From Bacteroidaceae bacterium (lineage in GTDB: Bacteria > Bacteroidota > Bacteroidia > Bacteroidales > Bacteroidaceae), in NCBI GenBank assembly GCA_017560125.1, contig JAFYOS010000018.1:329545-393544 (forward strand): a DNA stretch of 64,000 nucleotides, in the 5' to 3' direction. The translations under genes were made by a program, and so were the position numbers. Shown one piece after another: positions 41,637-61,767 of the stretch. Every line of letters begins with the position of its first letter. Positions within the stretch are counted from its first letter, which is position 1. The notes beneath the pieces are model-generated. The model ran no database searches. It was not told the DNA's origin and saw only the letters and a list, made by a program, of their open reading frames with translations.

Positions 41637-41641
41637 CACGT

Positions 41642-41719: not shown

Positions 41720-44700
41720 ATGTTTAAACACTGCTTAAGTAAATTTAGCTGCGCACTTATCGCAATGTGTGCGCTTGTTACAGGCGGCTTGTTCCAGTCT
41801 TGTACAGACGAGTTCGACGAGTACAAGTACGACGACAGTGAGCCGTCTTGGCTGGGTTCCAGTATCTACGACTTCTTGAATGACGAGGCTGGTGACCGTA
41901 CCTATCAGAACTATGTACGTATCATTGAGGACTTGGGCCTCAAGGAGGTTCTCTCACGTACAGGTAGTAAAACTCTCTTCATTGCCGATGATGCGGCATT
42001 CGACAGATTCTACGCGAATAACAATTGGGGTGTAGAGTCTTACGCAGATCTTTCTCTTGCACAGAAGAAGATTATTCTTTACAATGCAATGCTTGACAAC
42101 GCTTATCTTCTCGATATGCTTTCAAGCCGCGAGGGTGATCCTCCCGTAGAGGGTAGCTGCTTGCGTCGTACAACATCAGCTTCAAGCATGGACACCGTTC
42201 CCTACTTCACTGATGATGCTACAACAGCAGTAGGTTTCCGCCTTCCCCAGAACAACAAGTATTTCGACCGCTACCGTGCAGCCAACGAGGGTAAAGGTAT
42301 GCGTATCATGTCGGGTGCTTCTGACCCCATGATGGTACACTTCCTCCACGAGTACCTCACAACCAACAGCGTGCTCGACTCGGACTTCGACATCTTCTTC
42401 AACCACAAGAAGAGCCGTACAGGTACAGAGGCGTTCCTCTATGGTAACAAGATTCTCGCAAGCGGCATCGATTACGGTAACTTTACAGACGATACATTGA
42501 CTATCACATGTAAGAACGGTTACATCTACCGCATGGACAGCGTGCTCGTTCCTCCTTCGGATATGGCACAGGAGCTTCGCAAAAACCCCAAAACACAGCT
42601 CTTTAGCCGCATGCTCGACCGTTTCGCATACCCCGTTTACGACGCAGCAGTATCAGCTGAGTACAACCGTATCTATCACTACGGCGACGCTGAGAACGAG
42701 GAGCGTATATATAAGATGAAGTACTCTATCAAGGACGCATCTACATTTAAAGATGACGACGACAAGGATCAGAGCTTCAACAACATCGAGCTTCCCTTCG
42801 ATCCCGGTTTCACACAGATTGCCGGTTCAAGCGCCAAGGAGGCCGATATGGCTGCTATGCTCGTTCCCATGGACGAGATGGTATTCCGTTTCTTCGCTCC
42901 CATCTCTAAGCAGGATGTTAACTACGCTGACCTCACAGCTCAGCAGAAAGAGGTTTACGGTGTAGGTGCTGCTATCGTAGAGCGTTACGCTAATCCCGAG
43001 GACTTCGATGCAATCAACATCAACGACTACATGTCAATTGCTCCCTGTCTCGATTCAATCCCCTTGGATATCGTACAGGCGTTCCTTGCCAACCTCATGA
43101 AGGGTTCATTCGTTTCTAACGTTCCCAGCAAGTTCGACAAGGTAACAAACGACGCTCGTGACCCCATGGGCATCACACCTGCCGACGTTGAGGAGTGCGT
43201 ACTCGCAAACAACGGTGTTATATATATATTAAATAATGTATTCGGTCCTGCAAAATATCAGGCGGTTATGACACCTCCCCTTATCATGCAGAACATGCGT
43301 ATCATGAACCGCGTCATCAACGACCTCGATTATGATTCATACCTCTTGGCTATGGACTCATACTTCAGCTTCCTCGTACCCGATGACGAATACTTCGTTT
43401 ACTTCGATCCCTCTTCATTGCAGAGCGGTACACCCCTCGCATGGAAGTTCAAGTATGGCCGCAAGAAAGCTAGCGACAAGTCAGACGGTGTATGGGCAGA
43501 CAAATTTGCGTTCGATCCCACTACATACGAGATTCTCGACTCAATAGGCACAGAGGCCTTGACAACAAAGCTTTCAGAGTCTAGCGCAATGGGTAACCGT
43601 TTGCACGACCTCATGGAGTACCTCATCATCGTTGACTCAATCGAGTCAGGTAACCAGTACTACCTCACAAAGGGTTACGGTACAGTAAAATGTAAGGTTA
43701 CATCACGCGACGAGCAGGGCGTTAAGTTCTATGGTGGTGAGCAGATTGAGAACGGTTCAGAGATCGCCGTTAAACAGCGCTTCCCCGAGAAGAACGGTAT
43801 CACATACTGTACCTACTCAGAGGATCCCACAAAACCCTCAGGTGTTGTATCACCTCCCACAAAATCGGTTAACTACCTCATGAACGCGAAGAGCGCCGAG
43901 GGTGGTCCCTTCAGCTCATTCTTCGAGCTCTGTAACGGTCCCGAGGATTGGGATGGTTTCCTCAAGGCTACATTCCCCTTGGTAACAGACCTCACCAAGC
44001 TTTCAACCGACTCACTCAAGAAGTACTCAATCTTCTTCAAGGGTACATCTAAGACAGAGGTTCCCGCCGACTACGCAGTACCTTTCTTCAGCACATACCA
44101 CTACTCGGTATATGTACCCACAAACGACGCTATCCAGGCAGCATACAACCTTGGTCTTCCCACATGGGAGCAGGTAGAGGCTGAACTCGCCGAGGGTAAC
44201 GTAGGTCGTGTAGCTTCAGCGCTCCGTCTTATCAACAAGTTCGTTCGTTACCACTTCCAGGATAACGCCGTTTACGTTGACAACATGCCCTTCTCAGTTC
44301 TTTCAGCAGGTGTTAAGTACGACACAGTACGCTACGAGACAGCAGCTATCGACGATGCAACTGGCCGATTCTTCGAGACAATTATCAAGACACGCCCCAA
44401 CCCCACAACAGGCAAGGCAACAATCTCTGTTAAGGACAACATGGGCAACATCGCATACGTAATGAACGAAGATGGCAAGGAGGGTGACACATGGAACGTT
44501 CTTGCACGTGACCTTCTCCTCAAGGGTGCAAGCCCCGATAAGGCTACAGGTATCTCAACATCATCATTTGCCGTTATTCACCAGATTGATAAGGCTCTCT
44601 ACAACTCAGGCGTAATCGGTTACGATGGTCGTTTCCGTCGTTTCGCTACCGATGGTGAGCTCGTAGAAGAGATTGAGGTTGGTGCCGAGAAAACAAAATA

Positions 44701-44998
44701 CCTCATTGGTTACCGCAACAGCATGTTGTTCGAAACCGCAGAGGGTGAGGTTTACCAGAAGACTGGTTACATCATGAAGGCTAAAAACGAATCTGAGTGG
44801 ACACCCATGTCACGCGAGGATTATGTAATGCGTGCCGACACAGCTAAGATTCTTATCACAGAAGATGGTTACCTCATCAACGAAGAGGGTAACTTCATCA
44901 ACTGGGACGGTGTAGCTCTCGGTCTCGATTCACTCGGAAACGTAATGTTCCCCGACTCAATTGTTACCGTAAGCCCCGAAGGTCTTCCTATTAAATAA
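41720..44998 (+). CDS. large multi-domain fasciclin-like lipoprotein, first gene of the SusCD operon
   Basis: The 1092-residue lipoprotein has lipobox LFQSC (Cys about residue 28) and then CTDEFDEYKYDD. It holds several FAS1-like modules: the first from about residue 48 (SIYDFLNDEAGDRTYQNYV, TLFIADDAAFDRFY), others recognisable by ANNGVIYILNNVFGP, YFSFLVPDDEYF, YSVYVPTNDAIQAAY and FAVIHQIDKALYNSGV. No enzyme motif is seen. Its place ahead of SusC/SusD (17-nt gap) and its lipidation suggest a surface-exposed binding or adhesion protein, by analogy with SusE/SusF-type proteins. Codon use is strongly biased (GGT, CGT, TCA), like rpoC. Family membership of the later modules is by pattern only. 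Confidence 0.82.
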   Translation: MFKHCLSKFSCALIAMCALVTGGLFQSCTDEFDEYKYDDSEPSWLGSSIYDFLNDEAGDRTYQNYVRIIEDLGLKEVLSRTGSKTLFIADDAAFDRFYANNNWGVESYADLSLAQKKIILYNAMLDNAYLLDMLSSREGDPPVEGSCLRRTTSASSMDTVPYFTDDATTAVGFRLPQNNKYFDRYRAANEGKGMRIMSGASDPMMVHFLHEYLTTNSVLDSDFDIFFNHKKSRTGTEAFLYGNKILASGIDYGNFTDDTLTITCKNGYIYRMDSVLVPPSDMAQELRKNPKTQLFSRMLDRFAYPVYDAAVSAEYNRIYHYGDAENEERIYKMKYSIKDASTFKDDDDKDQSFNNIELPFDPGFTQIAGSSAKEADMAAMLVPMDEMVFRFFAPISKQDVNYADLTAQQKEVYGVGAAIVERYANPEDFDAININDYMSIAPCLDSIPLDIVQAFLANLMKGSFVSNVPSKFDKVTNDARDPMGITPADVEECVLANNGVIYILNNVFGPAKYQAVMTPPLIMQNMRIMNRVINDLDYDSYLLAMDSYFSFLVPDDEYFVYFDPSSLQSGTPLAWKFKYGRKKASDKSDGVWADKFAFDPTTYEILDSIGTEALTTKLSESSAMGNRLHDLMEYLIIVDSIESGNQYYLTKGYGTVKCKVTSRDEQGVKFYGGEQIENGSEIAVKQRFPEKNGITYCTYSEDPTKPSGVVSPPTKSVNYLMNAKSAEGGPFSSFFELCNGPEDWDGFLKATFPLVTDLTKLSTDSLKKYSIFFKGTSKTEVPADYAVPFFSTYHYSVYVPTNDAIQAAYNLGLPTWEQVEAELAEGNVGRVASALRLINKFVRYHFQDNAVYVDNMPFSVLSAGVKYDTVRYETAAIDDATGRFFETIIKTRPNPTTGKATISVKDNMGNIAYVMNEDGKEGDTWNVLARDLLLKGASPDKATGISTSSFAVIHQIDKALYNSGVIGYDGRFRRFATDGELVEEIEVGAEKTKYLIGYRNSMLFETAEGEVYQKTGYIMKAKNESEWTPMSREDYVMRADTAKILITEDGYLINEEGNFINWDGVALGLDSLGNVMFPDSIVTVSPEGLPIK

Positions 44999-45015
44999 GT
45001 AAAGAGATAACCGCT

Positions 45016-48000
45016 ATGATAAAGATAAAACATTTATTATTTCTCCTCCTCTGCTGCTTCGTAGGAACTGCATTTGCACAGAAGAGCGCGAGAATTTCCG
45101 GAAACATTTCAAGTGATTCCGAAGGTCCGCTTATGATGGTAAACGTTACCGAGCGCGACAAGACCAACCGTATTATCGAGGCTGCCGTAACCGATATGGA
45201 GGGTAACTTCAGTATGGTTGTAAAGAACACAGCCAACCGTCTCGAAATCTCTTATATCGGATATAAGACACAGGTTCTTGAGATTGGTTCACGCACCGTC
45301 TTCAATGTAAAGATGGTAGAGGACAACATGATGGACGAGGTCGTTATCGAAGCAAAGCCCCGTACACAGACAGGTGCCCTCGACATTCTCTCACGTGAGG
45401 TTTCACAGGCTACTCAGAAGTTCAGCATGTCAGAGATGGAAGGTCTTTCTTTCGCATCGGTTGACGAGGCTCTTCAGGGACAGATTGCCGGTCTTGACAT
45501 TACCTTCAACTCGGGTGACCTTGGTTCAGGTACAACAATGCGTTTGCGTGGTACCTCATCAATCAACGGTAACGCACAGCCCTTGATCGTTGTTAACGAC
45601 AACATCTTCGAGATGCCTACCGGTGAGGAGTTCAACTTCCAGGATGCCAACCAGGAGTCATTTGCACAGTTGCTTACCGTTAACCCCGACGACATCGAGT
45701 CAATCGAGGTATTGAAGGATGCTTCAGCTTGTGCTATCTGGGGTTCACGTGGTGCTAACGGTGTCATCAAGATTAAGACAAAGCGTGGTTCACGCGGTAA
45801 GACACGTTTGCAGTACAGCTACCGTTTCAAGGACAAATGGATTCCCAATGGTCTTAACCTCCTCAATGGTGACGACTACACTATGTTGCTCAAGGAGTCA
45901 CACTTCAATCCCAAGCAGAACGCTTCTATCGGCGATGTAGAGGAGTTGAACTACAACCCCAACTTCGCTCAGTACGAGAACTACAACGAAAACACCGATT
46001 GGGTTGACGCTGTATCTAAGCACGGTTACACCAACGAGCACAACATCTCACTTACCGGTGGTGGTGAGAAGGCTACATTCCGTATCTCAGGCGGTTACTA
46101 CAACGAGACAGGTACCATCATCCGTCAGTTGCTCGACCGTTACACCTCTACTATGGCTTTGGACTACTACGTATCAGACCGTATTAAGGTTATATCTGAC
46201 TTCTCTTTCACTTACACAAACAACCGTAAGAACTACGACAACGACATTCTTAACATCGCACAGGTTATCATGCCTAACATGTCAATCTATGCACAGGATC
46301 GTTTCGGTAACAACACACCCGACTACTACCAGATGCTCGAGAATGCTTCAGGTATCTTCGACGGTAACCAGAAAGACAAGAAGAACCCCATTGGTAAGGC
46401 TAACCTTGCTCGCAACGACGAGGAGACATACTCAATCACACCTCAGTTGACATTGGAGTACAACCTCCTTGGCCTCGAGGACGACGAGACACAGTTGAAG
46501 TACCGTGGTATGGTTAACATGAACATCAACACCTTCACCGAGACAAGCTTCATGCCCTCGGCTCTTACTACAAAGGACTGGACAAACGACCAGATCAACC
46601 GTTCATGGATGAAGGACTACAAATCATTGCAGTTCACCACACGTCACAACCTTATCTTCACTCCTCACTTCAACAACAGCGACCACTTCCTTACAATGAC
46701 TGGTCAGTTCGAGCTCTACTCAGGTAACAACTCTGCACAGGAGGAGACAACCTATGGTCTTCCCACAGGTAACATCACCTCTACAACAGTAGGTTCATAC
46801 CTTACAAACGCAGGTACCTCTACAGGTGAGTGGCGTTCAATGTCATTCGCTTACCAGAGCCACTACTCTTACAAATCTAAGTATTCACTCGGTCTTACAC
46901 TCCGTGCCGAGGGTAACACCAAGTTCGGTAAGGACAACAAGTGGGGTATCTTCCCCGCTATCTCAGGTCGTTGGAACATCACCGATGAGCCCTGGATGAA
47001 GTGGTCAGAGAAATGGTTGAACATGTTGTCAATCCGTCCCGGTTACGGTTGGTCAGGTTCAGCTCCCGGTCAGGACTACCTCATGTACTCTACCTATACA
47101 CCCGATGGTGCATATATGAACATGACAGCGTTCGTTCCCGGTGGTATGCGTCTTACAACCCTCCGTTGGGAGAAGAAGAAGGAGCTTAACATCGGTTCAG
47201 ACTTCGAGCTCTTCAACAGCCTCATCACCGGTTCGTTCAACTACTACGACAACAACACCAGCGACCAGCTCATGAGCAGCTACTCAATCCCCTCAACAAC
47301 AGGTTACACCTCACTCCGTTACAAGAACACAGGTGAGCTCCGCAACAAGGGATGGGAGTTGAACGTAAGCACAGCTAAGATTAAGCTCGTTAAGGACTTC
47401 ACAGTAAGTGCATTCTTCAACATCGGTCAGAACTTCAACACCGTTGAGGCAATGGAGAAATCGGTGCTCGATAACAACAACCCCGACTACGACTTCAATA
47501 ACGGTACATACCTTGGTCGTATCCAGGTAGGTAACCCCTTGGGTTCAATCTACGGTTTCCGTTACAAGGGCGTTTACCGCTACAGCTACAAGAACTGGGA
47601 GAAGGCTATCTCTGAGGCAGCAGCTGGTCGCAACGGTACATGTCCCATCGTTTACGATGCAGAGGGCAAGGTTGTTTACAACGCTGACGGTACTCCCAAG
47701 CAGATGGTTTACAACTACGACACCGAGACAGGTACATCATCGTACACATTCAAGGGTGGTGACGCTATCTACGAGGATATCAACTTCGACGGTAACATCA
47801 ACGAGCTCGACCTTGTTTACCTTGGTAACTCAAACCCCAAAGCACAGGGTGGTTTCGGTTTGACCTTCCAGTACAAGCGTCTCTCTTTGAAGGCTAACTT
47901 CACATACCGTTACGATATCGACGTAATGAACACCGCACGTATGCGCGTTGAGAACATGCACACCAACGACAACCAGAGCATCGCAGTTAACTGGCGTTGG

Positions 48001-48324
48001 CGTAAGGAGGGTGACATCACCGAGATTCCTCGTGCACTCTACAACACAGGTTACAACTGGTTGGGTAGCGACCGCTACGTAGAGGATGCTTCATACTTGC
48101 GTCTTTCTTACCTCCAGCTCTCTTACAACTTCGAACCCAACTGGTTGAAGCGTTACGGTCTCCAGACCTTGAACCTCTACGCTTCGGCAGACAACCTCTG
48201 CTTCTGGTCTAAATATACAGGTCTCGATCCTGAGATTGGTTTAGGAGGTTGGGGACGTGCAGAGGACCAGTCTAAGACACCTCGTTCACGTTCATACACA
48301 ATTGGTCTTACAGTAGGTTTCTAA
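45016..48324 (+). CDS. SusC/RagA-type TonB-dependent transporter 1
   Basis: The 1102-residue outer-membrane protein has a signal peptide ending TAFAQ, a carboxypeptidase-regulatory-like beta domain (about residues 25-95), a TonB-box-like DEVVIEA (about 105), a plug domain (SVDEALQGQIAGLDI, MRLRGTSSINGNAQPLIVV, IESIEVLKDASACAIWGSRG) and a 22-strand-type barrel ending SRSYTIGLTVGF with terminal Phe. SusC proteins import large nutrients with energy from TonB-ExbBD; the SusD encoded 12 nt downstream is its lid. The substrate is unknown because no degradative enzyme is encoded nearby. Codon use indicates high expression. Confidence 0.97.
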   Translation: MIKIKHLLFLLLCCFVGTAFAQKSARISGNISSDSEGPLMMVNVTERDKTNRIIEAAVTDMEGNFSMVVKNTANRLEISYIGYKTQVLEIGSRTVFNVKMVEDNMMDEVVIEAKPRTQTGALDILSREVSQATQKFSMSEMEGLSFASVDEALQGQIAGLDITFNSGDLGSGTTMRLRGTSSINGNAQPLIVVNDNIFEMPTGEEFNFQDANQESFAQLLTVNPDDIESIEVLKDASACAIWGSRGANGVIKIKTKRGSRGKTRLQYSYRFKDKWIPNGLNLLNGDDYTMLLKESHFNPKQNASIGDVEELNYNPNFAQYENYNENTDWVDAVSKHGYTNEHNISLTGGGEKATFRISGGYYNETGTIIRQLLDRYTSTMALDYYVSDRIKVISDFSFTYTNNRKNYDNDILNIAQVIMPNMSIYAQDRFGNNTPDYYQMLENASGIFDGNQKDKKNPIGKANLARNDEETYSITPQLTLEYNLLGLEDDETQLKYRGMVNMNINTFTETSFMPSALTTKDWTNDQINRSWMKDYKSLQFTTRHNLIFTPHFNNSDHFLTMTGQFELYSGNNSAQEETTYGLPTGNITSTTVGSYLTNAGTSTGEWRSMSFAYQSHYSYKSKYSLGLTLRAEGNTKFGKDNKWGIFPAISGRWNITDEPWMKWSEKWLNMLSIRPGYGWSGSAPGQDYLMYSTYTPDGAYMNMTAFVPGGMRLTTLRWEKKKELNIGSDFELFNSLITGSFNYYDNNTSDQLMSSYSIPSTTGYTSLRYKNTGELRNKGWELNVSTAKIKLVKDFTVSAFFNIGQNFNTVEAMEKSVLDNNNPDYDFNNGTYLGRIQVGNPLGSIYGFRYKGVYRYSYKNWEKAISEAAAGRNGTCPIVYDAEGKVVYNADGTPKQMVYNYDTETGTSSYTFKGGDAIYEDINFDGNINELDLVYLGNSNPKAQGGFGLTFQYKRLSLKANFTYRYDIDVMNTARMRVENMHTNDNQSIAVNWRWRKEGDITEIPRALYNTGYNWLGSDRYVEDASYLRLSYLQLSYNFEPNWLKRYGLQTLNLYASADNLCFWSKYTGLDPEIGLGGWGRAEDQSKTPRSRSYTIGLTVGF

Positions 48325-48336
48325 AATTAGCGAAAT

Positions 48337-50058
48337 ATGAAAAGAATAAAAAATATATTAGGTAAAGCGGTTATGGCAACCGTCCTCGGATGCTCAATGC
48401 TGATGACATCTTGTACGGACTACTTGACCATCTATCCTACCAACTCCGTGATTTTGGAGAACTATTGGAAAACCGCAGAGGACGTTAATGGTATGTTGGC
48501 TACCTGTTACAAGAACATGGTAAAAGCAGACGCCATTAAGAGAATGATGATATGGGGCGAGTTGCGTGCCGACAATATGATCACACGTACAAGCGCTTCA
48601 ACCGACCTTAAATACATTGTCGAGGCCAACCTTCTCGAGACCAACGACTGGTTCAAGTGGGATGTGTTCTATCAGACAATCAACTATTGTAACATGCTCA
48701 TCAAGTACGCTCCCGGCGTAATGGAGGAGGATCCCGACTTCACACAGGGTGACCTTGAGGTTGTAATGGGTGAGGCTTACGCACTCCGTGCACTTTGCCA
48801 CTTCTACCTCGTACGTTCATTCCGCGACATCCCCTTGGCACTCGAGGCTAAGGATGCCGACGAGCAGGAGATGATTTATCCCCAGCGCGCTCCCATGGAG
48901 GTGCTCGACAGCATCATGGTTGACCTTGAGCGTGCTTCAGGCCTTGTAATGAAGAAGGGTGGTTTCACCTACAAAGATTACAACTACAGCCGCATCAACC
49001 GCAACGCTGTTTATGCTATGATGGCCGACGTTAACCTTTGGCGTGCAGCCTTCACACAGTACGAAGAGGCACTCGAGGCTCCCTCGGCTAAGGCATTGGA
49101 GTACTACACCAAGGCTATCGAGAACTGCGACTCTGTAATCGAGCCCATGCAGCGCGAGATGATCGAGCAGTACGAGAAACGTAACGAGCAGATGACCGAG
49201 GTAGGTCCCGGTACCAAGAACCCCTACTTCCTCATCACCAACGAGACCACAAAGGCTGCGATGGTATCAAAGGCTTACGACGAAATCTTCGGTGAGGAGC
49301 GCTCAACCGAGTCAATCTTCGAGCTCGACTTGGATGGTCGTTCTAACGCCAACGACGCAGTTACCGATTTCTATGGTTACAGCAAGACAACAGGTTCATT
49401 CATCGCTCCCGCGAAGGCTCCCATCACACAGTCTATCTACGGCGAGAACGACTTGCGTCTTACCAGCTTCACCAACGCTCCCCTCAAGGCTACAGGCGAG
49501 GACAAGACAGAATATACTATTGCTAAGTACGCAGCACGTCGTTCACCCCTCAACGGTGACGCCAACGCTAACTACTGGTGGGGTAGCAGCGAGTGTCCTG
49601 CAAACTGGATTATCTATCGCAAGACCGACGTAATGCTTATGAAGGCTCAGGCGCTTGCATACCGCAACACCGATACCGACGACCTCAACAAGGCATTCGA
49701 GCTTGTACAGAGCGTAAACCGCCGTTCACTCATCAACGAGCGCGACACACTCAAGTTCGAGTCATACAGCACACCCGACCAGATGAAAGCACTCGTACTC
49801 GACGAGCGTCTTCGCGAGCTTTCATTCGAGGGCAAGCGCTGGTACGACCTTGTGCAGAAGGCACTCATCGAGCGTAGCACAAAGAGCATCCTCGACCTCA
49901 TCGTCAAGAAGCTCGACAGCAACGCAGGTGCGGTACAGAGCAAGATGGCATCTATCAACTCGCTCTTCTGCCCCATCCACGAGAGAGAGCTTAAGTTGAA
50001 CCCGTTGCTTAAACAGAATCCTGCATTCGAGAGCAACAGCTCAATCGAGCAGAACTAA
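48337..50058 (+). CDS. SusD/RagB-type surface lipoprotein 1
   Basis: The 573-residue lipoprotein has lipobox LMTSC (Cys26) and SusD-type helical TPR pairs. Typical blocks are VMGEAYALRALCHFYLVRSF, YPQRAPMEVLDSIMVDLE, the SusD C-terminal block LVLDERLRELSFEGKRWYDL and a final PIHERELKLNPLLKQNPAF. It closes the SusC barrel from outside and binds ligand. It follows SusC by 12 nt, and a 10-bp hairpin separates it from the next gene. Confidence 0.97.
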   Translation: MKRIKNILGKAVMATVLGCSMLMTSCTDYLTIYPTNSVILENYWKTAEDVNGMLATCYKNMVKADAIKRMMIWGELRADNMITRTSASTDLKYIVEANLLETNDWFKWDVFYQTINYCNMLIKYAPGVMEEDPDFTQGDLEVVMGEAYALRALCHFYLVRSFRDIPLALEAKDADEQEMIYPQRAPMEVLDSIMVDLERASGLVMKKGGFTYKDYNYSRINRNAVYAMMADVNLWRAAFTQYEEALEAPSAKALEYYTKAIENCDSVIEPMQREMIEQYEKRNEQMTEVGPGTKNPYFLITNETTKAAMVSKAYDEIFGEERSTESIFELDLDGRSNANDAVTDFYGYSKTTGSFIAPAKAPITQSIYGENDLRLTSFTNAPLKATGEDKTEYTIAKYAARRSPLNGDANANYWWGSSECPANWIIYRKTDVMLMKAQALAYRNTDTDDLNKAFELVQSVNRRSLINERDTLKFESYSTPDQMKALVLDERLRELSFEGKRWYDLVQKALIERSTKSILDLIVKKLDSNAGAVQSKMASINSLFCPIHERELKLNPLLKQNPAFESNSSIEQN

Positions 50059-50069
50059 TATATCGTAAT

Positions 50070-50095
50070 CCTGTCGGGCTTTCCGGCCCGACAGG
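50070..50095 (+). other. intercistronic hairpin between SusD1 and the second fasciclin gene
   Basis: A perfect 10-bp stem, CCTGTCGGGC (50070-50079) with GCCCGACAGG (50086-50095), has a 6-nt loop. It has no T-run, so it more likely shields mRNA ends or marks a processing site than terminates. It sits in one of the two wide gaps of the operon. Confidence 0.75.
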
Positions 50096-50124
50096 GACGA
50101 TTGAAAAAAGTTCACAAAAACAAA

Positions 50125-52344: not shown

Positions 52345-52365
52345 TACGATACAGAAAGAATCATT

Positions 52366-54501
52366 ATGTCTTATATAAATAACATATTCAGAAACACATT
52401 CGGCAAGTTGGTTATGGGCTTGTCGGCATGTGTTGCACTCTGCACAGTTGGATGTACAGAAGACATAGATGAATCGAACCGTTATACATTTACGGGCGAG
52501 ACTATTATCGACTACATGGAGAACCGCTCGGAGATTTACAGCAGCTACCTGTACATCCTCGACCATGCACGCATCGGTCGCAGCGAGTCGGGTAGTGTAA
52601 GACACCTCCTTTCTACATATGGTCACTACACATGTTTCGCACCCACAAATGATGCAATAGCTCGATTCCTTTTTGTGCAGGATTCTATCTACCACGATAA
52701 TCTTGCCAAACTGGAGAGCGGGGAAATGGATCCCAAGGACTTCCGCGACACAGGTATTCACTCACCTCTGTTGGAAGATATTTCGGATTCAATGTGCACC
52801 GAAATTGCAAAGAATCACCTTCTGGAAAGAGCCTATCTCACGATAGACCTTTCCGAAGGCTCTTTCCCCAGCCCCAATATGAACGACCGCTTTATCACAA
52901 TGGTTTGGACCGTCGATTCGGTTACAGCAGTGGTTCGTCCCCTGTTGAACAACAACGCCCGAATTGTTGAAAGCGACGTTGAGGTAGAGAATGGTGTAGT
53001 ACAGACATTGGACGCTGTGCTGAACCCCTCTACAGCGCTTCTTCCCGACCTTCTTGCATCGCAGGAGGAGTACTTTGCCATCTGGATTAAAATCCTCGAA
53101 ATGACAAAGCTCGACTCGGCTATGCGTCTTACAGAAGACAAGGAGTATGCCAACAGCGATGTATGCGGCCAAAGCTACAGTTCGGATTACATTAACTCGA
53201 CAAGCCACAGAGGAAAGTGCTACTATCCCGGCGGCAAGAAGTACAAATACACTATGCTCGTTGAGCCCGATTCAATCTTCAAATTGTACGGCATCAACAA
53301 CGAGGAGGATTTGATTACTTATTGCCAGAAGTGGTATGGCACCGAGTGCCCCGATGAATACGATAATCCCAAGAACGCACTCTATCAGTTCGTTGCTTAT
53401 CACATTCTCGACCGTCAGTTGCAGTATGCAAGTGGCGCCGGCCCTGGTGGTTTCATCATGGAGAACTACAAAGGTTCATCGTACAACAGCGAGAGCATGA
53501 TGTGTGGTTCGGAGTTCGACCGTTACGACTACTTCGAGACAATGTTGCCCTACACAATGGTGAAGGTAACACGTCCCTTGACAAGCATGGAGTATGGTTC
53601 GGACGTCGTAATCAACTACGCACAGAACGGCGGTAAGAAATTCTTCAATGCCGAAATGCGTAACCACCTCAATGTCGTAGTAATGTCGCCCAGCCAGTCT
53701 CTTGAGTACATGCCCGGCTTCATCGACGAGGCAATCAACGGACGTCTTCACCCCATTAACAAGTTGCTTATCTACAACGAGGGTGAGATGGCAGGTAACG
53801 TGTTGCGCGAGCGCATGCGTTGGGACTTCACATCGTGGTTCCCCGAACTTACCAACAACAATGTGCGCTGGTACAACCGTGATAGCAAGATTGAGGTATT
53901 CTTCATACCCGACGGATATCTTGCACGTGCGCGTTTCAACTCGACATTGAGCGAAAACTACTACCTCACAGGTACAAACGGCTGGAACAACTATCAGGGT
54001 GACGAGATGCTTGCATCAGGTCTCTTCGATATCGAGTACCGTATGCCCTACGTACCCGATGGTACATACGAATTGCGTTTCGGTTATGCACGATACAGCA
54101 ACCGAAGTGTGGTTCAGTTCTACATCGACGGTAAGCCCACCGGCATCCCCGTTGACCTCCGTAACAACAGCGAGACTGAGGCCTTCATCGGCTTCATCCC
54201 CGACTCGCAGTTCGGTGGCGACGAGACCGAGATTGCCGAGAACGACAAGGAGATGCACAACCGTAACTGGATGAAGGCTCCCGCATCGTTCAAGGTTGCA
54301 GGCGGTACCATTGCACGCGATACAAGTACACCTATCCGCTATGTGCTCGGTACTTTCCACCTGTCGAAGGGCGACCACTGGTTCCGTATGAAGAACGTAC
54401 GTGAGGACCAGGCTACCGACTCACAGGGACATCACGACTACTTCGAGATTGTACCCAAGGCTGTGGTAACCGACCCCACCGTACCCGAGGATCGCTATTG
54501 A
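52366..54501 (+). CDS. fasciclin-domain lipoprotein 3
   Basis: The 711-residue lipoprotein (lipobox TVGC) begins its mature part with TEDIDESNRYTFTGET and mirrors the upstream gene: HLLSTYGHYTCFAPTNDAIA, DTGIHSPLLEDISDSM, VENGVVQTLDAVLNPSTALL, AINGRLHPINKLLIYNEGEM, YVPDGTYELRFGYARY, and the end DYFEIVPKAVVTDPTVPEDR. The tandem pair probably arose by duplication, but the middle parts (about residues 230-330) have diverged strongly. That is where ligand specificity could differ. Gap to the upstream gene is 21 nt. Confidence 0.88.
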   Translation: MSYINNIFRNTFGKLVMGLSACVALCTVGCTEDIDESNRYTFTGETIIDYMENRSEIYSSYLYILDHARIGRSESGSVRHLLSTYGHYTCFAPTNDAIARFLFVQDSIYHDNLAKLESGEMDPKDFRDTGIHSPLLEDISDSMCTEIAKNHLLERAYLTIDLSEGSFPSPNMNDRFITMVWTVDSVTAVVRPLLNNNARIVESDVEVENGVVQTLDAVLNPSTALLPDLLASQEEYFAIWIKILEMTKLDSAMRLTEDKEYANSDVCGQSYSSDYINSTSHRGKCYYPGGKKYKYTMLVEPDSIFKLYGINNEEDLITYCQKWYGTECPDEYDNPKNALYQFVAYHILDRQLQYASGAGPGGFIMENYKGSSYNSESMMCGSEFDRYDYFETMLPYTMVKVTRPLTSMEYGSDVVINYAQNGGKKFFNAEMRNHLNVVVMSPSQSLEYMPGFIDEAINGRLHPINKLLIYNEGEMAGNVLRERMRWDFTSWFPELTNNNVRWYNRDSKIEVFFIPDGYLARARFNSTLSENYYLTGTNGWNNYQGDEMLASGLFDIEYRMPYVPDGTYELRFGYARYSNRSVVQFYIDGKPTGIPVDLRNNSETEAFIGFIPDSQFGGDETEIAENDKEMHNRNWMKAPASFKVAGGTIARDTSTPIRYVLGTFHLSKGDHWFRMKNVREDQATDSQGHHDYFEIVPKAVVTDPTVPEDRY

Positions 54502-54532
54502 TTTTAACGAAATAAATTAAATTATTAACAAT

Positions 54533-56296
54533 ATGAACAGAAAATTTAAACATGGAATGTCGATGGCTCTTGCTGTCCTGAGTGCAATGTTTATGAACAC
54601 TGCCTGCACCGAGGATTGGAACGACCATTACGATGACAATGGCACAAACGCGAGCCGTACATCAATTCTTGACATTGTTAAGGGCGATGCCGATCTCTCG
54701 AACTTCAGTGCCGTAGTAGAAGCATTGGGTTGCGCAGACTCATTGCTCAACCAGTCACGTGTTTACACATTGTGGGCTCCTGTCAACGAGTATGTAAATA
54801 AAGACTCACTCTTGGCAGAGATCGAAAAGGGTAACCGTGATAAAGTGCTTAACCGTTTTGTTGAGTCACACATCGCTAACTTCAAGTATGCAGCGTCTGA
54901 CTCGATGAAGGCCGATAACTACATGCTCCTTCTCAACGAGAAGATGGTGCCTTTCTGTGGTAACTACAGCGATGGCTACACATTCGACGGCATGGCGGTT
55001 GTCGAGAAGAACATCCCCGCATTCAACGGTATCGTTCACAAAATCGGCGGTACAGTAACTTACGCTCTCAACCTTTGGGAGTACCTCGAGAACGCCGAGG
55101 GTGCCGATTCAGTTGCTAAGTTCCTCTACTCATTCAACGTAAGCAAGTTCGATGAGTGGGCAAGTATCGAAGGTCCCACAGTACAGGGTAACAAGACATA
55201 CCTCGACTCGGTATTCTCTAACTCGAACCAGTGGTTCTTCACTTACGGTGACAAATACACCGCAGGTATCGGTAACGTATCTATGGAGGACTCTTCTTAC
55301 ATGTTCGTAGTTCCCGCAAACGAGGTTTGGACTGAGTGGACAGAGAAGGCCGAGAAGTACTACAACCTCTACCTCGACGAGAAACTTGGTGAGGCTGAGA
55401 AGTTCCGCACCGACTCATTGAGATGGTTCTATGCTCGCAAGTCTATCTTGAACTACTCATTGTTCAGCAAGCGCGACCAGACTCCCGTTCACAAGCTCGC
55501 TTGGGCAGTTGATAACGACGGTGACGGTCTTCGCGATGACTCAATCTTATCTACATACTCTGTTAAGCGTCGTCTTTTCTCTAAGGAGGATGTTCTTGCA
55601 GGTACACGCGAGGGCGTTGAGTGTTCAAACGGTACATTCTACGTGAAGGATGTATTCAACTACTCACCCTTCTACACATGGCACGACACCATCAAGGTTG
55701 AGGCTGAGTACCCCAGATATCAGGGTAACGAGAAGAACAAGGACAACTTCGTAACTTCGGGTACCGACCCCAACGTAGTATATGTTTCAGAGTCTCAGAT
55801 GCACGATTCACTCGTTGCACAGGGTGCTAAGCTTTCAAGCAACCAGTACGTAGAGGTAGCTCCTCTTGCAAGTACAGGTAACCCCAAGCTTATCTTCACA
55901 ATCCCCGAGACACTTTCTTCTACATACAACGTGAAGATTGTGTTTGTACCTCCTCACATTGCATCTCCCCGTGCTAACCCCGCCGATTCAGAGCCCAACA
56001 AGGTGAAGCTTATTCTCCGCGCTACAGGCGACAACGGCAAGCAGGCTAAGCTCGTAGAGGTTAAGAACATTCAGAACGATCCTACACGCATCGACACAGT
56101 ATTTATCCCCGATGCAGAGGATCCCAGCAAGCCCATGAAGATTAAGTTCCCCTTCACAGAGTATGGCTTTGCCGACAATCTGCTGAATGCTTCTCTTGAG
56201 ATTACTTCAGATGTTGCTCGTAACGACAAGGGCTTCACACGCGTATTGCGTATCGACTGCATCATCCTTGAACCCGTTGCCGAGGACGAAGAATAA
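54533..56296 (+). CDS. fasciclin-like lipoprotein 4 (shorter form)
   Basis: The 587-residue lipoprotein has lipobox NTAC (Cys about residue 25) and then TEDWNDHYDDNG. Two FAS1-like modules are visible: SILDIVKGDADLSNFSAVVE with VYTLWAPVNEYVNKDSLL and AFNGIVHKIGG in the first, and NLWEYLENAEGADSVAKFL onward in the second. A beta-rich C-terminal domain ends LRIDCIILEPVAEDEE. It lacks the SNRYTFTGET start and PEDR end of the two genes before it, so it belongs to another subfamily. It sits 15 nt before SusC2 and so mirrors the position of the 1092-residue protein before SusC1. Confidence 0.85.
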   Translation: MNRKFKHGMSMALAVLSAMFMNTACTEDWNDHYDDNGTNASRTSILDIVKGDADLSNFSAVVEALGCADSLLNQSRVYTLWAPVNEYVNKDSLLAEIEKGNRDKVLNRFVESHIANFKYAASDSMKADNYMLLLNEKMVPFCGNYSDGYTFDGMAVVEKNIPAFNGIVHKIGGTVTYALNLWEYLENAEGADSVAKFLYSFNVSKFDEWASIEGPTVQGNKTYLDSVFSNSNQWFFTYGDKYTAGIGNVSMEDSSYMFVVPANEVWTEWTEKAEKYYNLYLDEKLGEAEKFRTDSLRWFYARKSILNYSLFSKRDQTPVHKLAWAVDNDGDGLRDDSILSTYSVKRRLFSKEDVLAGTREGVECSNGTFYVKDVFNYSPFYTWHDTIKVEAEYPRYQGNEKNKDNFVTSGTDPNVVYVSESQMHDSLVAQGAKLSSNQYVEVAPLASTGNPKLIFTIPETLSSTYNVKIVFVPPHIASPRANPADSEPNKVKLILRATGDNGKQAKLVEVKNIQNDPTRIDTVFIPDAEDPSKPMKIKFPFTEYGFADNLLNASLEITSDVARNDKGFTRVLRIDCIILEPVAEDEE

Positions 56297-56311
56297 TAGA
56301 GAATTTTGAGT

Positions 56312-59300
56312 ATGAAAAATAAAAAATCAACTATGTATATGCGACAAATTATGCAAGCAATGGTGGCATTGGTGGTACTGATGTCATCTACCGCACCTGT
56401 AGCCGCAATGGTTTCAGGCGGTAACGAAGCGAACGATACCGTTTCGGCTAAGGCCGGAAAGGCTGCTGCCGAGATAGTTGCGGCACGTAAGATTACCGGT
56501 ACCGTTTATGACGCAGCAACTAAAGAACCTCTCCCCGGTGTTCGCGTACAGGGTACAGGACATAGCAATGTTACTACCATGACCAACTCTGAGGGTGCCT
56601 ATACTTTGAACATCCCTTCATATGTTACTTTGCTTAACTTCTCTACTCCCGGATACGGACTCATCCAGCGCCCCGTTCTCAACGACGACGTGATTGATGT
56701 TTATATCTACACAGACAAGTTCAGCCAGAAGTACAACGAGGATATTGTTATCACAGCTACAAACAAGGCCGAGATCGGTATCGGTTCTGCTCTTACAGTA
56801 GATGCTGAAATCGCTAACAACCTTGGTGCTGATGTACGCAGCATTACACGTTCGGGTACTCCCGGTATCGGTAACGCTATGTTCATCCGTGGTATCAATT
56901 CAATCAATGCCAACACTCAGCCTCTGGTTGTAGTTGACGGTGTCATCTACGACTTGCAGGAGGATGCAGGTGCTCTTCACCTTGGTGCATACAACAACAT
57001 TCTTGCTGCTATCGACATCAACGACATCGCTGATGTAAGGGTATTGAAGAATGCTACTGCTCTCTATGGTGCGCGCGCTGCCAACGGTGTGCTCCTCATC
57101 ACTACCAAGCGTGGTCGCAGTATGGCTACACGCATTACTGCAAACATCTTCGGTGGTGTGACACTTACACCCAACCTCCCCGACCTCATGGGCGCTGAGC
57201 AGTATCGTACATATGCCAACGAGCTTATCGGTACTATGGAGACAAACATGAAGGTGTTCAACTTCCTCCAGAGCAACCCCGACTTCTATTATTATAACAT
57301 GTATCATAATAATACAGACTGGTCGGACTACATCTACCGCGAGGCTTACACACAGAACTACAAGGTTAATGTAGAGGGTGGTGACGAGATTGCTATGTAC
57401 AATTTCTCACTCGGTTACACAGGCGCACAGAGCGCATTGGAGAAGAACGACTTCAACCGTTTGAACATCCGCTTCAACTCGGACATTGTATTGGCTAAGG
57501 ACTTCAAGACACGCTTCGACATTGGTTTCAGCCGTGTACAGCGCAACTTGCTCGATGATGGTGCTCCCGCAGAGTATGCTTCTGCTCCCATCTCATCTCC
57601 CGGTTTCCTTTCAATGATCAAGGCTCCCTTCTTGAGCCCCTACAAGTTCTCTCAGTATGGTGTTAAGACATCTGCACTCGACGATTCTGATACATTCGCT
57701 TTCGGCATCGACCGTACAGTTGACCACACAAACAACTCATACTACAACCCCCTTACCATCCTTGCTAATGGTAACGGTGAGAACAAGAACTTCCAGGAGT
57801 ACTCACAGTTCACACTTAGCTTGGCTCCCGAGTACACACTCGGCGACTTCAAGATCTCTGAGCTGTTCAACTACTCATTGCACCGCATGAGCGAGAAATA
57901 CTATCTCCCCTACGGTTCTAACCCCAACAACAACCAGTATCACTTCTATGCCGAGAACCTCGGTTACATTGGTAACTCACTCGCATCTTACTTCGGTAAA
58001 GAGGCGTCTATTACCAGCGATACTCGTGTTGAATGGAAGAAGTCATTCGGCGCTCACAGCTTCGATATCTTCGGCGGTTTCCGTTACACCAACTTCAAGA
58101 TGGACGGTAACTACCTTTCATGTGCTAACTCGGGTAACGACAACGCTACCAACATCGACAAGGACTACGACTACATCACCGACAACGGTGACAACAACGA
58201 GTGGACTAACCTTGCATGGTACTTGAACGCTAACTACAACTACCTTACACGTTACTTCTTGCAGGGTACTGTATCTATGGAGACATCTTCACGCTTCGGT
58301 AAAGAGGCTGACGGTGGCGTAGGCATGGGCGGTCTCCAGTGGGGTATCTTCCCCTCTGCTCAGGCAGCTTGGTTGCTCTCTTCAGAGTCTTGGTTCAAGG
58401 TTCCCGGTATCAATTCATTGAAGCTCCGCGCAGGTTACGAAGAGGTTGGTAACGACGCTATCAACTACTACGCAGCTCAGAGCTACATGGAGGCTATCAA
58501 GTACTACGACAAGTACATGGGTGTCCAGATTGGTAACGTAGAGAACGACGGTGTTAAATGGGAGACAACAGGTCGCTTCAACGTAGGTGTTGACGCTCTT
58601 CTCTTCAACAACCGTGTTGCTGTATCGTTCGACTGGTACAAGGCTACTACAAAAGACCTCCTCGTACAGAAGAAATATCAGTACATCACAGGTATGGATA
58701 CATACTGGAGCAATGGTGGCGAGATGGAGAACACCGGTTTCGAGGCTTCTATCAATGCTAAGGTAATCAACACCAAGGACTTCACATGGGAGCTCGGTGC
58801 ATCGGTAGGTAGCTACAAGAACGAGGTAACTGCTCTCGACGAGAATGTTGCACCCGTAAATGTTTACGGTGCTCAGGTTGTTACTCAGGTAGGTCAGGCT
58901 GTAGGTTCATTCTATGGCTACAAGACCGACGGTGTTATCAAATCTGCCGAGGAGGCTGCTCAGCTCGGTCTCTACCAGATTGATGCTACAGGTAAACGCG
59001 AGTACTTCAAGCCCGGTGATGTTAAGTTCGTTGACATGACAGGTGAGGGCGAAATCAGCGACGCCGACAAGGTAATCCTTGGTGATGCTCACCCCGACTT
59101 CTATGGTAACATCTTCTCTAAGTTCACATACAAGAACTGGCAGCTCGACCTTCTCTTCAACTACTCTGTAGGTAACGACGCTTTCAACTACTATCGTCAG
59201 CAGCTCGAGAGCGGCAGCAACTTCTTCAACCAGACAACAGCTGTGTTGAACCGCTGGTCTTACGACGGTCAGGAGACAAATACTCCTCGTATTGCTTATG

Positions 59301-59581
59301 GCGACCCCATGAACAACAACCGTTTCTCAGACCGTTGGATTGAGGATGCTTCTTACTTGCGTCTCAAGAAACTTCAGATTTCTTACAACCTGCCTCTCTC
59401 TTTGAGCTGGTTGCAGGGTATCACCATCTGGGGTGCTGCTGAGAACCTTCTCACATTCACTAAGTATTTGGGTAGCGATCCCGAGTTCTCGGTTAGCAAT
59501 AATGTAATGTTCCAGGGTGTAGATGCCGGTTTGCTTCCGCAGAGCCGCAGTTTCCACTTGGGTGTTAAAGTTAACCTCTAA
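56312..59581 (+). CDS. SusC/RagA-type TonB-dependent transporter 2
   Basis: The frame opens at TTG 56306, but ATG 56312 is the likely start, giving 1089 residues. A long signal region ends near APVAAM. A carboxypeptidase-regulatory-like domain follows (KITGTVYDAATKEPLPGVRV), then a TonB-box-like DIVITATN (about 137), a plug (MFIRGINSINANTQPLVVVD, DVRVLKNATALYGARAANG) and a barrel ending SRSFHLGVKVNL. It is clearly different from SusC1 in sequence, so the two pairs are not a recent duplication. It follows the short fasciclin gene by 15 nt. A long hairpin lies between it and SusD2. Confidence 0.96.
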   Translation: MKNKKSTMYMRQIMQAMVALVVLMSSTAPVAAMVSGGNEANDTVSAKAGKAAAEIVAARKITGTVYDAATKEPLPGVRVQGTGHSNVTTMTNSEGAYTLNIPSYVTLLNFSTPGYGLIQRPVLNDDVIDVYIYTDKFSQKYNEDIVITATNKAEIGIGSALTVDAEIANNLGADVRSITRSGTPGIGNAMFIRGINSINANTQPLVVVDGVIYDLQEDAGALHLGAYNNILAAIDINDIADVRVLKNATALYGARAANGVLLITTKRGRSMATRITANIFGGVTLTPNLPDLMGAEQYRTYANELIGTMETNMKVFNFLQSNPDFYYYNMYHNNTDWSDYIYREAYTQNYKVNVEGGDEIAMYNFSLGYTGAQSALEKNDFNRLNIRFNSDIVLAKDFKTRFDIGFSRVQRNLLDDGAPAEYASAPISSPGFLSMIKAPFLSPYKFSQYGVKTSALDDSDTFAFGIDRTVDHTNNSYYNPLTILANGNGENKNFQEYSQFTLSLAPEYTLGDFKISELFNYSLHRMSEKYYLPYGSNPNNNQYHFYAENLGYIGNSLASYFGKEASITSDTRVEWKKSFGAHSFDIFGGFRYTNFKMDGNYLSCANSGNDNATNIDKDYDYITDNGDNNEWTNLAWYLNANYNYLTRYFLQGTVSMETSSRFGKEADGGVGMGGLQWGIFPSAQAAWLLSSESWFKVPGINSLKLRAGYEEVGNDAINYYAAQSYMEAIKYYDKYMGVQIGNVENDGVKWETTGRFNVGVDALLFNNRVAVSFDWYKATTKDLLVQKKYQYITGMDTYWSNGGEMENTGFEASINAKVINTKDFTWELGASVGSYKNEVTALDENVAPVNVYGAQVVTQVGQAVGSFYGYKTDGVIKSAEEAAQLGLYQIDATGKREYFKPGDVKFVDMTGEGEISDADKVILGDAHPDFYGNIFSKFTYKNWQLDLLFNYSVGNDAFNYYRQQLESGSNFFNQTTAVLNRWSYDGQETNTPRIAYGDPMNNNRFSDRWIEDASYLRLKKLQISYNLPLSLSWLQGITIWGAAENLLTFTKYLGSDPEFSVSNNVMFQGVDAGLLPQSRSFHLGVKVNL

Positions 59582-59602
59582 TGATATAACCTAAGACATG
59601 GC

Positions 59603-59644
59603 GTTCCGCGGCTGTTTGCCGCACACCGACAAGCAGCGCGGAAC
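59603..59644 (+). other. intercistronic hairpin between SusC2 and SusD2
   Basis: GTTCCGCG (59603-59610) pairs with CGCGGAAC (59637-59644). After a one-base bulge the stem continues with seven more pairs (59612-59618 with 59630-59636). There is no T-run. A hairpin here could lower SusD2 relative to SusC2 or protect an upstream mRNA 3' end. Confidence 0.75.
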
Positions 59645-59681
59645 TTCATAAGGAAATTTGGAAAACATTAATTCTACTAAA

Positions 59682-61712
59682 ATGATGAAAAAGAATTTTA
59701 TTTATAGTCTTTGCATGTTACTCTGCGGTGCCATCTTCATGAGCTCTTGCGAGGACATGATTGAAATCGAATCAGACCGTGTCGATTACGATATGAGTAC
59801 TCTGACACTCAACGACACCGTTTACTCGGTACTCGGTATCTTGAAGGGTGTTCAGGGTGTTATGGACCGTCAGGTTCTGTTGGGCGAGCTCCGTGGCGAC
59901 CTTATGGTTGTTAACGAGGCTAAGGCCGTTACCGATATTCAGAAGATTGCTCGTTTCGAGTTCGATTCTGATAATGAATATCTCGATATCAAGGATTACT
60001 ACACCATCATCAACAACTGTAACATCTACCTTGCACGCGTTGATACCACACTCGAGCGCAATAACGTTAAGTTGATGCTCCGCGAGTATGTTGGTGTACA
60101 GAGCGTTCGCGCATGGGCTTACATGCAGCTCGCAATGAACTATGGTGAGGTTCCCTTCTTCGAGGAGCCCATCCTCACACACAGTCTTGCCGAGGAGGTG
60201 ATGACACGTCCCATGGCCGACATGAACACCATCGCTCCCAAGCTCATCGAGACACTTCTTCCCTACGAGGATCCCGAGGCTTATCCCATGCCTGCATTCT
60301 CGGGCTTGACCTACAAGACCAGTTTGTACTTCGTACCCATCCGTCAGTTGCTTGGTGACCTCTACTTGTGGACAGGCAACTATGTTGAGGCTGCTAAGAT
60401 GTACCAGAAGCTCATTGTAGAGAACGAGTACGAGGATAAACTCGGCGTTGTACTGTGGGCCGACGAGGAGGGTAAAGATTACAACGGTACCTTCGATCAG
60501 GTATTCAAATCAACAAGCCCTGCTAATACTATCGCAGTATCTACATTCTCTGCCTCTTCATCTACAGGTACAGTATCTCAGCTTGCAAGCATCATTGCTC
60601 CTCAGGCACAGGGCGAGCACATGGTACAGGCTGCTCCCGGTTACTATGGCTTGAGCAAAGCTCAGGTTTACAAGTACTACAAGGCCGAGGGTACTAAGAT
60701 TACAGAGGCTGTTAACCCCAGCGACGAGAAACCCGGTGACCTCCGTATCTACCAGAGCGTTTACTCTACACGTAACTTCTCTGAGAATGTTGTTTACGGT
60801 GGCGTAATTGGTAAGTTCAACCTCATGACAGCAAGAAACGAGAATGGTGTTTCTCTTGGTAACTTCAGTGAAGTTATCAACGAGATAAAGTACGGTCGTA
60901 CCATCCAGATATACCTCCGCTTTGCCGAGGCTCTCGCAGGTATTGCTGCCGAGCAGGGCGAGAACAGATGGCAGGGTGCTAACGAGCTCGCTATGCGCGT
61001 TCTCAAAGAGGGTATCAGAGCCGAGAAGTACTACGTTCAGAAGTATTTGAACGACTTCGAGGTTCAGTACATGGATGTTAAGAGAGACGAGGCAGGTAAA
61101 ATTGTATATGATTCAACTGTATATGAGATTGACACCCTCGGTAACTACATCTACACTCTTCCCGATTCTATTCTCGTAACTGAGACACGTCAGCTCTTCG
61201 ATACAATCATGTTCGACTTCACCGATGTTCCCGAACTCGACAACAACATTGGTGTTCACTCACGTGGTTCAGGTTTCGCTGAGTACAACCAGTACTACTC
61301 ACTCGACAACGACTCATGCATCGCTCTCTACCTTGGTAAGGAGGGTGTAGCTGCCGAGAAGGAGATTCCTTTGCTCAACGATAAGGGCAAGGTTCAGTTC
61401 GACGAGAACGGCGACACAATCATGACTACTGTTGCTTACACTGAGTACGGTTTGACAGCAGACGACAAGATTGAGTACGTTCGTAACCTTATCATCGACG
61501 AGTGCGCTCTCGAGACAGCATTCGAGGGTTACCGTTTCACAGACCTTATCCGTTTTGCTAAGAACATGGGCAGCAACGATGTTCTTGCTAAGCGTGTTGC
61601 CGGTCGTGCAATCGAGAACAAGGTTAGCGTTCTCCACCCCGAATTCCAGTACGACGCTGCTCTCTATGGCAAATTGTCTGACCAGGCTAACTGGTATCTT
61701 CCCAAGAAGTAA
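59682..61712 (+). CDS. SusD/RagB-type surface lipoprotein 2
   Basis: The frame opens at TTG 59658. ATG 59682 (or 59685) gives a normal lipoprotein signal with lipobox FMSSC. The protein is about 676 residues, about 100 longer than SusD1, and carries SusD blocks such as REYVGVQSVRAWAYMQLAMN, VPIRQLLGDLYLWTGNYVEA and, near the end, IIDECALETAFEGYRFTDLI. An acidic insert precedes the C-terminal block (about residues 470-600, with DTLGNYIYTLPDSILV). It pairs with SusC2 and ends the operon at a strong terminator. Confidence 0.95.
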   Translation: MMKKNFIYSLCMLLCGAIFMSSCEDMIEIESDRVDYDMSTLTLNDTVYSVLGILKGVQGVMDRQVLLGELRGDLMVVNEAKAVTDIQKIARFEFDSDNEYLDIKDYYTIINNCNIYLARVDTTLERNNVKLMLREYVGVQSVRAWAYMQLAMNYGEVPFFEEPILTHSLAEEVMTRPMADMNTIAPKLIETLLPYEDPEAYPMPAFSGLTYKTSLYFVPIRQLLGDLYLWTGNYVEAAKMYQKLIVENEYEDKLGVVLWADEEGKDYNGTFDQVFKSTSPANTIAVSTFSASSSTGTVSQLASIIAPQAQGEHMVQAAPGYYGLSKAQVYKYYKAEGTKITEAVNPSDEKPGDLRIYQSVYSTRNFSENVVYGGVIGKFNLMTARNENGVSLGNFSEVINEIKYGRTIQIYLRFAEALAGIAAEQGENRWQGANELAMRVLKEGIRAEKYYVQKYLNDFEVQYMDVKRDEAGKIVYDSTVYEIDTLGNYIYTLPDSILVTETRQLFDTIMFDFTDVPELDNNIGVHSRGSGFAEYNQYYSLDNDSCIALYLGKEGVAAEKEIPLLNDKGKVQFDENGDTIMTTVAYTEYGLTADDKIEYVRNLIIDECALETAFEGYRFTDLIRFAKNMGSNDVLAKRVAGRAIENKVSVLHPEFQYDAALYGKLSDQANWYLPKK

Positions 61713-61730: not shown

Positions 61731-61767
61731 AAAAAATGGCCCGCCACTGTGGCGGGCCATTTTTTTT
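61731..61767 (+). terminator. terminator of the fasciclin-SusCD operon, probably bidirectional
   Basis: A 16-bp perfect stem (61731-61746 with 61750-61765) closes a CTG loop, with an A-run before and a T-run after. It lies 18 nt after SusD2 and 15 nt from the convergent PqqD-like gene. Confidence 0.95.

Follow-up and report, generated by a model that had tools for sequence, protein, structure and literature searches.

Sus-type polysaccharide utilization loci (PULs) are the described systems closest to the eight-gene operon analyzed here, which combines two SusC/SusD importer pairs with four fasciclin (FAS1) lipoproteins. The operon lies in a 64,000-nt stretch of DNA, the window, from an uncultured gut bacterium of the Bacteroidaceae (assembly GCA_017560125.1, contig JAFYOS010000018.1, positions 329,545-393,544 of the forward strand). 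Adjacent SusC and SusD genes (two pairs here) and surface lipoproteins are shared with Sus-type PULs, and relatives of the operon have carbohydrate-active enzymes (CAZymes) and sugar transporters nearby. The operon differs in that its surface lipoproteins are FAS1 proteins, its two SusCD pairs stand in a fixed order, and no enzyme or recognised sensor was found at the window locus. Two tandem SusC/SusD pairs reportedly occur with a xylanase in the Prevotella bryantii xylan system xusABCD, where we know of no fasciclin proteins. The RagAB peptide importer has the SusC family in common with the operon, but the SusC proteins of the operon are less similar to RagA than to the solved chains 8aa4 and 5t3r, and to our knowledge RagAB has no FAS1 partners. 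A FAS1-domain protein is marked beside SusD and GH5, GH9 and GH26 genes in a cellulose/hemicellulose-like PUL of Gramella portivictoriae (Flavobacteriaceae), but in the accessible part of that paper FAS1 is a gene label only, with no statement of a double-SusCD FAS1 core (PMC4891872). The accessible text on a SusCD-bearing symbiont has a passing mention tied to a fasciclin reference (PMC10199937), and the fasciclin in the part of PMC7661554 that could be consulted belongs to another genus. No description of this operon type was found among the literature matches listed, where subscription papers are largely outside coverage, and no role of FAS1 proteins in nutrient uptake was found in the literature searched.

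Our analysis makes it likely that the operon is a FAS1-type double SusCD core which captures and imports glycans or glycopeptides. The eight plus-strand open reading frames (ORFs) are FAS-A (41720-44998), SusC1 (45016-48324), SusD1 (48337-50058), FAS-B1 (50101-52344), FAS-B2 (52366-54501), FAS-C (54533-56296), SusC2 (56306-59581) and SusD2 (59658-61712), separated by 17, 12, 42, 21, 31, 9 and 76 nt. The ORF check and Pfam thereby confirm the gene order, places and spacing given in an initial annotation of the window. Pfam finds Fasciclin in genes 1, 4, 5 and 6 (weakest in FAS-A, 5.9e-6; 7.3e-12 in FAS-B1 and 1.2e-8 in FAS-C), Plug in genes 2 and 7, and SusD families in genes 3 and 8. SusC1 additionally carries CarbopepD_reg_2, SusD1, also a lipoprotein, matches SusD-like_3 and SusD_RagB, and SusD2 is a divergent SusD lipoprotein (SusD_RagB, 1.1e-5). 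Both SusC proteins, which are TonB-dependent transporters, have the SusC homolog 8aa4 as their best PDB sequence match (3.6e-89 for SusC1 and 7.4e-94 for SusC2). FAS-B1 starts at the TTG at 50101 or at a later ATG, and the listed starts of genes 7 and 8 are TTG codons, with in-frame ATGs at 56312 (SusC2) and 59682 (SusD2).

The operon is more than a chance arrangement, as dozens of genomes have these genes in this order. FAS-A was matched in 56 of 101 family genomes (five belong to this genus), and a single genome can hold as many as 15 matched segments. Outside the genus we compared 57 loci, every one reached via a FAS-A match, and in 43 of these SusD1 is followed by FAS-B and then FAS-C. In six further loci FAS-B follows SusD1, but the locus is cut or has no recognised FAS-C; the other eight include three that are cut short, three in which an antisense ORF was picked, one with no room for FAS-B (L173) and one with a FAS1-like set without SusCD (L183). 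The order FAS-A, SusC1, SusD1, FAS-B, FAS-C, SusC2 is seen in family, order and class relatives, and SusD2 comes after SusC2 in all 20 downstream stretches (L186 used for one). Across the phylum, 28 of the 395 genomes searched matched FAS-A, many via one FAS1 domain only; seven genomes besides this one gave long matches (E below 1e-60), and the operon was present in all of them. The ancestral core likely comprised seven genes, with a second FAS-B giving the eight of the window; the operon of genome G152 has three FAS-B genes. A SusC1 tree of 56 rows joins the window to its own genus and then to loci L151 and L178 (support 100); the tree leaves out L106, L204, L161, L150, L158, L163 and L197, and its two long branches, L107 and L192, are placed unsurely.

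The window locus was initially described as having no degradative enzyme. This holds locally, as Pfam detects no CAZyme family at E 0.1 or better in the eight operon genes or in the two genes upstream, but it is not a property of the system, because the operons of relatives sit near xylanases, GH43, GH67, rhamnogalacturonan lyases, pectin enzymes and sugar-catabolism genes. For the 47 non-genus loci with at least 3 kb of upstream sequence, glycan-active enzymes were counted up to a distance of about 8 kb. The listing covers ORFs of at least 250 aa on the operon strand, with the divergent enzymes of L190 added by hand, and drops L106 and L204, which coincide with L164 and L173, the genus loci L147 and L150, and L161. 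Pfam was run on 82 of the 95 listed ORFs, the other 13 being housekeeping or glycosyltransferase-like by eye, and part of the results are given as families rather than members. At least 17 of the 47 loci have such an enzyme, which is a lower bound. The set upstream of L166 comprises a major facilitator superfamily transporter, GH10, GH43 and GH67, and a matching set, known partly from family counts, precedes L167. GH43 also stands upstream of L153, L174, L176 and L193. Other upstream enzymes are GH51-type (L169), GH95 (L184), GH10 and GH31 (L160), pectate lyase (L155), GH115, acetylesterase and GDSL (L189), GH88, GH95 and GDSL (L190, divergent), PL11 (L181), GH98 (L201), GHL10 (L165) and proteins with a glycosyl-hydrolase core (L146 and L179). 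In place of such enzymes, L185 carries an FGGY kinase, a protein resembling an isomerase, and a fused aldolase/dehydrogenase. Downstream stretches carry enzymes as well: GH106, oligogalacturonate lyase, a GH28-like protein and GH2 after L189 (L243), GH43 after L176 and L193 (L233 and L235), and PL11 with SASA after L181 (L229), so PL11 flanks one operon on both sides. The idea that the SusC1 branch of the window is enzyme-free was overturned by this PL11 pair and by the glycosyl-hydrolase-core proteins at L146 and L179; the 12 enzyme labels on the SusC1 tree predate this finding.

The FAS1 assignment draws on Pfam for all four lipoproteins, on structure models and Foldseek for FAS-A and FAS-B2, and on the profile only for FAS-C (periostin, 6e-24). 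The FAS-A model (predicted local distance difference test, pLDDT, 84.0) is aligned with TGFBIp and periostin over 944-950 columns (best E 2.9e-16). Whole-chain template modelling (TM) scores against these two proteins are low (0.20-0.35), as expected if the domains are arranged differently; the likeness is therefore domain by domain, between animal matrix proteins and a bacterial lipoprotein of a transport operon that have tandem FAS1 domains in common. The model suggests that FAS-A consists of four tandem FAS1 domains. FAS-B1 and FAS-B2 are 51% identical, and the FAS-B2 model (pLDDT 82.5) matches TGFBIp, the fasciclin I pair, the xanthan-binding module MiXBM (7ehg, 3.4e-7) and the carbohydrate-binding module (CBM) CBM35 (2w1w, 1.2e-4). 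A FAS-B profile also finds MiXBM in the PDB (9e-4), at profile positions 507-550 of 656, i.e., in the C-terminal part. These matches suggest that FAS-B has two FAS1 domains with a CBM-like tip, a C-terminal beta-sandwich, by which it would bind glycans.

In the mechanism we propose, the long multi-domain lipoproteins FAS-A, FAS-B and FAS-C would take the place of SusE/F or other surface glycan-binding proteins. A ligand would be bound at the cell surface, by FAS-B through its CBM-like tip, and passed to the two SusD-capped SusC barrels, with import powered by the TonB system. We infer that the FAS1 lipoproteins form a complex with SusCD. Hydrolases are encoded near the operon in many relatives, but elsewhere in this genome. 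The operon would work as the core of a PUL. Judged by its missing enzyme, the locus in the window does not by itself amount to a complete PUL, but together with its relatives it seems to form a FAS1-type variant of the SusCD/PUL kind, and a type of sugar-capture system that appears to have been overlooked. With a fixed seven-gene core, found in ruminant-gut Bacteroidaceae and also in other orders, FAS1 proteins would acquire a role: surface capture for SusCD importers.

Several observations weigh against capture and import of glycans. No enzyme could be assigned in 30 of the 47 non-genus loci, nor upstream of the nearest loci outside the genus (L151 and L178). In some of the 17 loci other genes stand between the enzyme and FAS-A (e.g., an RNase R-like gene, L153 and L160), and therefore not every enzyme need be functionally linked to the operon. 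FAS-B resembles MiXBM to a modest degree (TM on the target, 0.63-0.65), the assembly has a contamination of 6.41%, and FAS1 domains also bind proteins and hydrophobic ligands. RagA, which is not the closest solved chain for either SusC, is still a strong match to both: the bit scores for SusC1 and SusC2 are 160 and 167 with RagA, behind 303 and 319 with 8aa4 and 211 and 186 with 5t3r.

One alternative is uptake of peptides or proteins in the manner of RagAB, in which FAS1 lipoproteins would hold host proteins while SusCD imports peptides freed by secreted peptidases such as M60. The genome has eight M60 matches and no CAZyme at the locus, but M60 enzymes are often O-glycopeptidases, which suits import of glycopeptides as well. 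FAS1 domains bind proteins in animals, according to a review (PMC6032426). Both SusC proteins are nearer to other SusC homologs than to RagA or BT_2264, many copies of the operon elsewhere lie near glycan enzymes, and FAS-B carries a CBM-like tip, and we regard peptide uptake as unlikely. An adhesive or architectural role, with FAS1 proteins mainly holding cells to matrix or mucus and the transporters secondary, would fit the four-FAS1 architecture seen in periostin and TGFBIp and the large set of orphan FAS-B proteins without SusCD. However, wherever the operon is readable throughout, the FAS1 genes are intermixed with two SusCD pairs, and enzymes lie near the operons of relatives, which makes this role quite improbable. 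The match of solved astaxanthin-binding FAS1 proteins to the FAS-B profile (E about 1e-8) could be taken to mean that the operon imports a cofactor or another small hydrophobic ligand, such as a carotenoid, haem or a vitamin, but several other FAS1 proteins match more strongly. With the glycan-enzyme context in relatives, and the many FAS-A matches per family genome that look like PUL expansion, we give cofactor import very little credence. The surface FAS1/SusCD capture and import system of the initial annotation is well supported as a gene arrangement, while the enzyme-bearing neighbourhoods of relatives weigh against the peptide, cofactor or purely adhesive role attached to it.

Assuming capture and import of glycans or glycopeptides, the neighbours of FAS-B genes bear on the substrate. 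An orphan FAS-B gene at C13:225762 stands amid SASA esterases, a GLAA-B (GH110-type) protein, an M60 peptidase and GH123; GDSL/SASA and GH123 lie near FAS-B in G001, G012 and G034, and GH20 adjoins FAS-B in G021. Host O-glycans or glycopeptides are favoured because of these neighbours. On the other side, SASA esterases are also found in plant-glycan loci, the operons of relatives sit in plant-glycan loci, and this genome has five GH43 matches, because of which host and plant glycans cannot be told apart. In our judgement host O-glycans or glycopeptides are the most likely substrate here, at somewhat under an even chance, followed by pectic or arabinan glycans.

The genome holding the window has few SusCD genes and many FAS-B genes. 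It has ten Plug-domain matches, but only the two of the operon are of SusC length (frames of 1109 and 1093 aa; the rest 557-822), and a Plug protein cut by a contig end (C27) is by eye a receptor without the SusC N-terminal domain. PF07980 and PF14322 are found in SusD1 and SusD2 only, the second PF14322 match being below the curated cut-off, and Plug, PF07980 and PF14322 searches found no second SusCD system in this assembly. Among the 43 other genus genomes, 37 have at least four SusD matches. FAS1 matches were obtained in 42 of the 61 genomes searched (37 of 61 of this genus), and this genome has 22. Eighteen intact FAS-B proteins of more than 600 aa are encoded, two in the operon and sixteen outside, and genes of this bank occur around the genome singly and as five-gene tandem arrays. 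One orphan paralog without SusCD beside it lies in the window (23473-25455, plus strand), with a FAS1 match and 36% identity to FAS-B1 over 735 columns. L001 and L002 each hold five FAS-B paralogs in tandem without an adjoining SusCD, the last L001 copy running off the contig, and a further paralog (L003, 7588-9533) is in two overlapping frames and probably broken.

The identity among the sixteen outside FAS-B proteins declines from 82% in a 23-residue tether to 60% in the first FAS1 domain, 50% in the second and 42% in the C-terminal tip. This gradient would fit a fixed dock and a varied tip, although relaxed constraint on the tip would give the same pattern. We tentatively propose that in this lineage other SusCD systems were lost and that the nutrient range is set by a growing FAS-B bank, the members of which would dock on the single double-SusCD operon via a near-invariant tether at the N-terminus (C-x3-ID-x-SNRYTFTGET), while their CBM-like tips would have diverged to suit different glycans; at present this appears rather improbable. 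The five genus genomes with at least eight FAS1 matches have 0-3 SusD matches, where the median of the other 32 is 6, and 5-8 M60 matches, where that median is 2. This contrast is perhaps a single event, because the five genomes may be one clade, and across the 37 genus genomes FAS1 counts were not significantly rank-correlated with SusD (rho -0.19, p 0.25) or M60 counts (rho 0.20, p 0.23). Genome G028 (85%-complete assembly), one of the five, has no SusD match, no FAS-A ortholog and no full FAS-C, and a reading with one importer and many receptors must treat this as a gap. The G028 genome has 26 FAS1 matches and zero SusD matches, and its stretch L090 has three short secreted proteins in a row (5467-9894), weakly FAS-A-, FAS-C- and FAS-B-like, with no SusCD, much as in the set at L183. 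Bacteroides species have dozens of SusCD pairs, which makes the number of receptors per transporter hard to test there. A genus member with a single double-SusCD operon and many orphan FAS1 receptors would be a simple natural system for how many surface receptors feed one transporter.

Within the genus, FAS-A was matched in 43 of 44 genomes (weak only in G020 and G028), FAS-C in 42 (weak only in G028) and SusD2 in 42. The named relatives are mostly uncultured genomes from ruminant cecum, colon and rectum labelled Bacteroidaceae or Bacteroidales. Forty stretches were extracted and 39 tabulated by gene order; in the fortieth, L090 (G028), the operon is absent. The order FAS-A, SusC1, SusD1, FAS-C, SusC2, SusD2 without FAS-B is found in 32 of the 39 (one with a cut FAS-A), five stretches from three further species (G011, G024 and G065) have the FAS-B pair in the operon as in the window, and two are partial. 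In many sister species FAS-B is at a separate locus, often in two copies. Both the FAS-B pair in the window operon and the absence of FAS-B from the operon of most sister species look recent. A recent merger of two modules, as suggested by the initial annotation, is unsupported because other families and orders already share a single order of seven genes; FAS-A and FAS-C are moreover unlike in size and domain make-up, and any merger may be ancient. At L091, L093, L095 and similar loci of sister species a gene of about 640 aa, NAD synthetase-like by eye, stands between the two FAS-B genes, often with a ClpB-like gene next. Contig C60 of G030 has the operon twice, inverted and with identical scores, which is either a recent duplication or an assembly artefact.

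The eight genes are probably transcribed as one unit, as far as can be read from the DNA. A -7 promoter box (TATATTTGC, 41629-41637, plus strand) is followed by a leader of about 77 nt, and a strong intrinsic terminator (ATGGCCCGCCACTGTGGCGGGCCATTTTTTTT, 61736-61767, plus strand), as initially annotated, is plain after the operon. No TAnnTTTG box was found at any of the seven junctions (scanned from 100 nt before to 60 nt after each). Upstream of FAS-A, this box is present in 27 of the 28 genus loci with enough upstream sequence, in 26 at -83 to -91 and in one at -39, counted from an early start picked by script; in the single missing locus it is present relative to a later start. The promoter had been called perfect, which is correct for the -7 box but not for the degenerate upstream element, where the window by eye reads TTAG and some sister loci read TTTG. 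Inverted repeats without a T-run lie in the SusD1/FAS-B1 gap (9 bp, CCTGTCGGG...CCCGACAGG, 50070-50095, plus strand) and in the SusC2/SusD2 gap (GTTCCGCG...CGCGGAAC, 59603-59644, plus strand), and could possibly set relative expression. A further inverted repeat, CTATACT/AGTATAG, is found at 41650-41667, just past the expected transcription start. Single genus leaders often fold as hairpins, but RNAalifold on 25 of 28 leaders (L059, L076 and L079 omitted) gave zero consensus pairs; therefore, no leader riboregulator is claimed.

Two plus-strand genes precede the operon: a DUF6057 membrane protein (37886-39790; PF19529, 2.1e-80) and a PD40 beta-propeller lipoprotein (39790-41307; PF07676, 1.6e-15). 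No glycan sensor or regulator (hybrid two-component system, extracytoplasmic function sigma factor or SARP) was found by Pfam in the operon or these two genes, the only window genes scanned for it. The PD40 gene immediately precedes FAS-A in 32 of the 39 genus stretches, and several others end there. DUF6057 homologs stand beside the operon in L151, L178 and L233; because the DUF6057/PD40 pair adjoins it in L151 and L178, and lies inverted and downstream in L233, the pair may be functionally linked to the operon.

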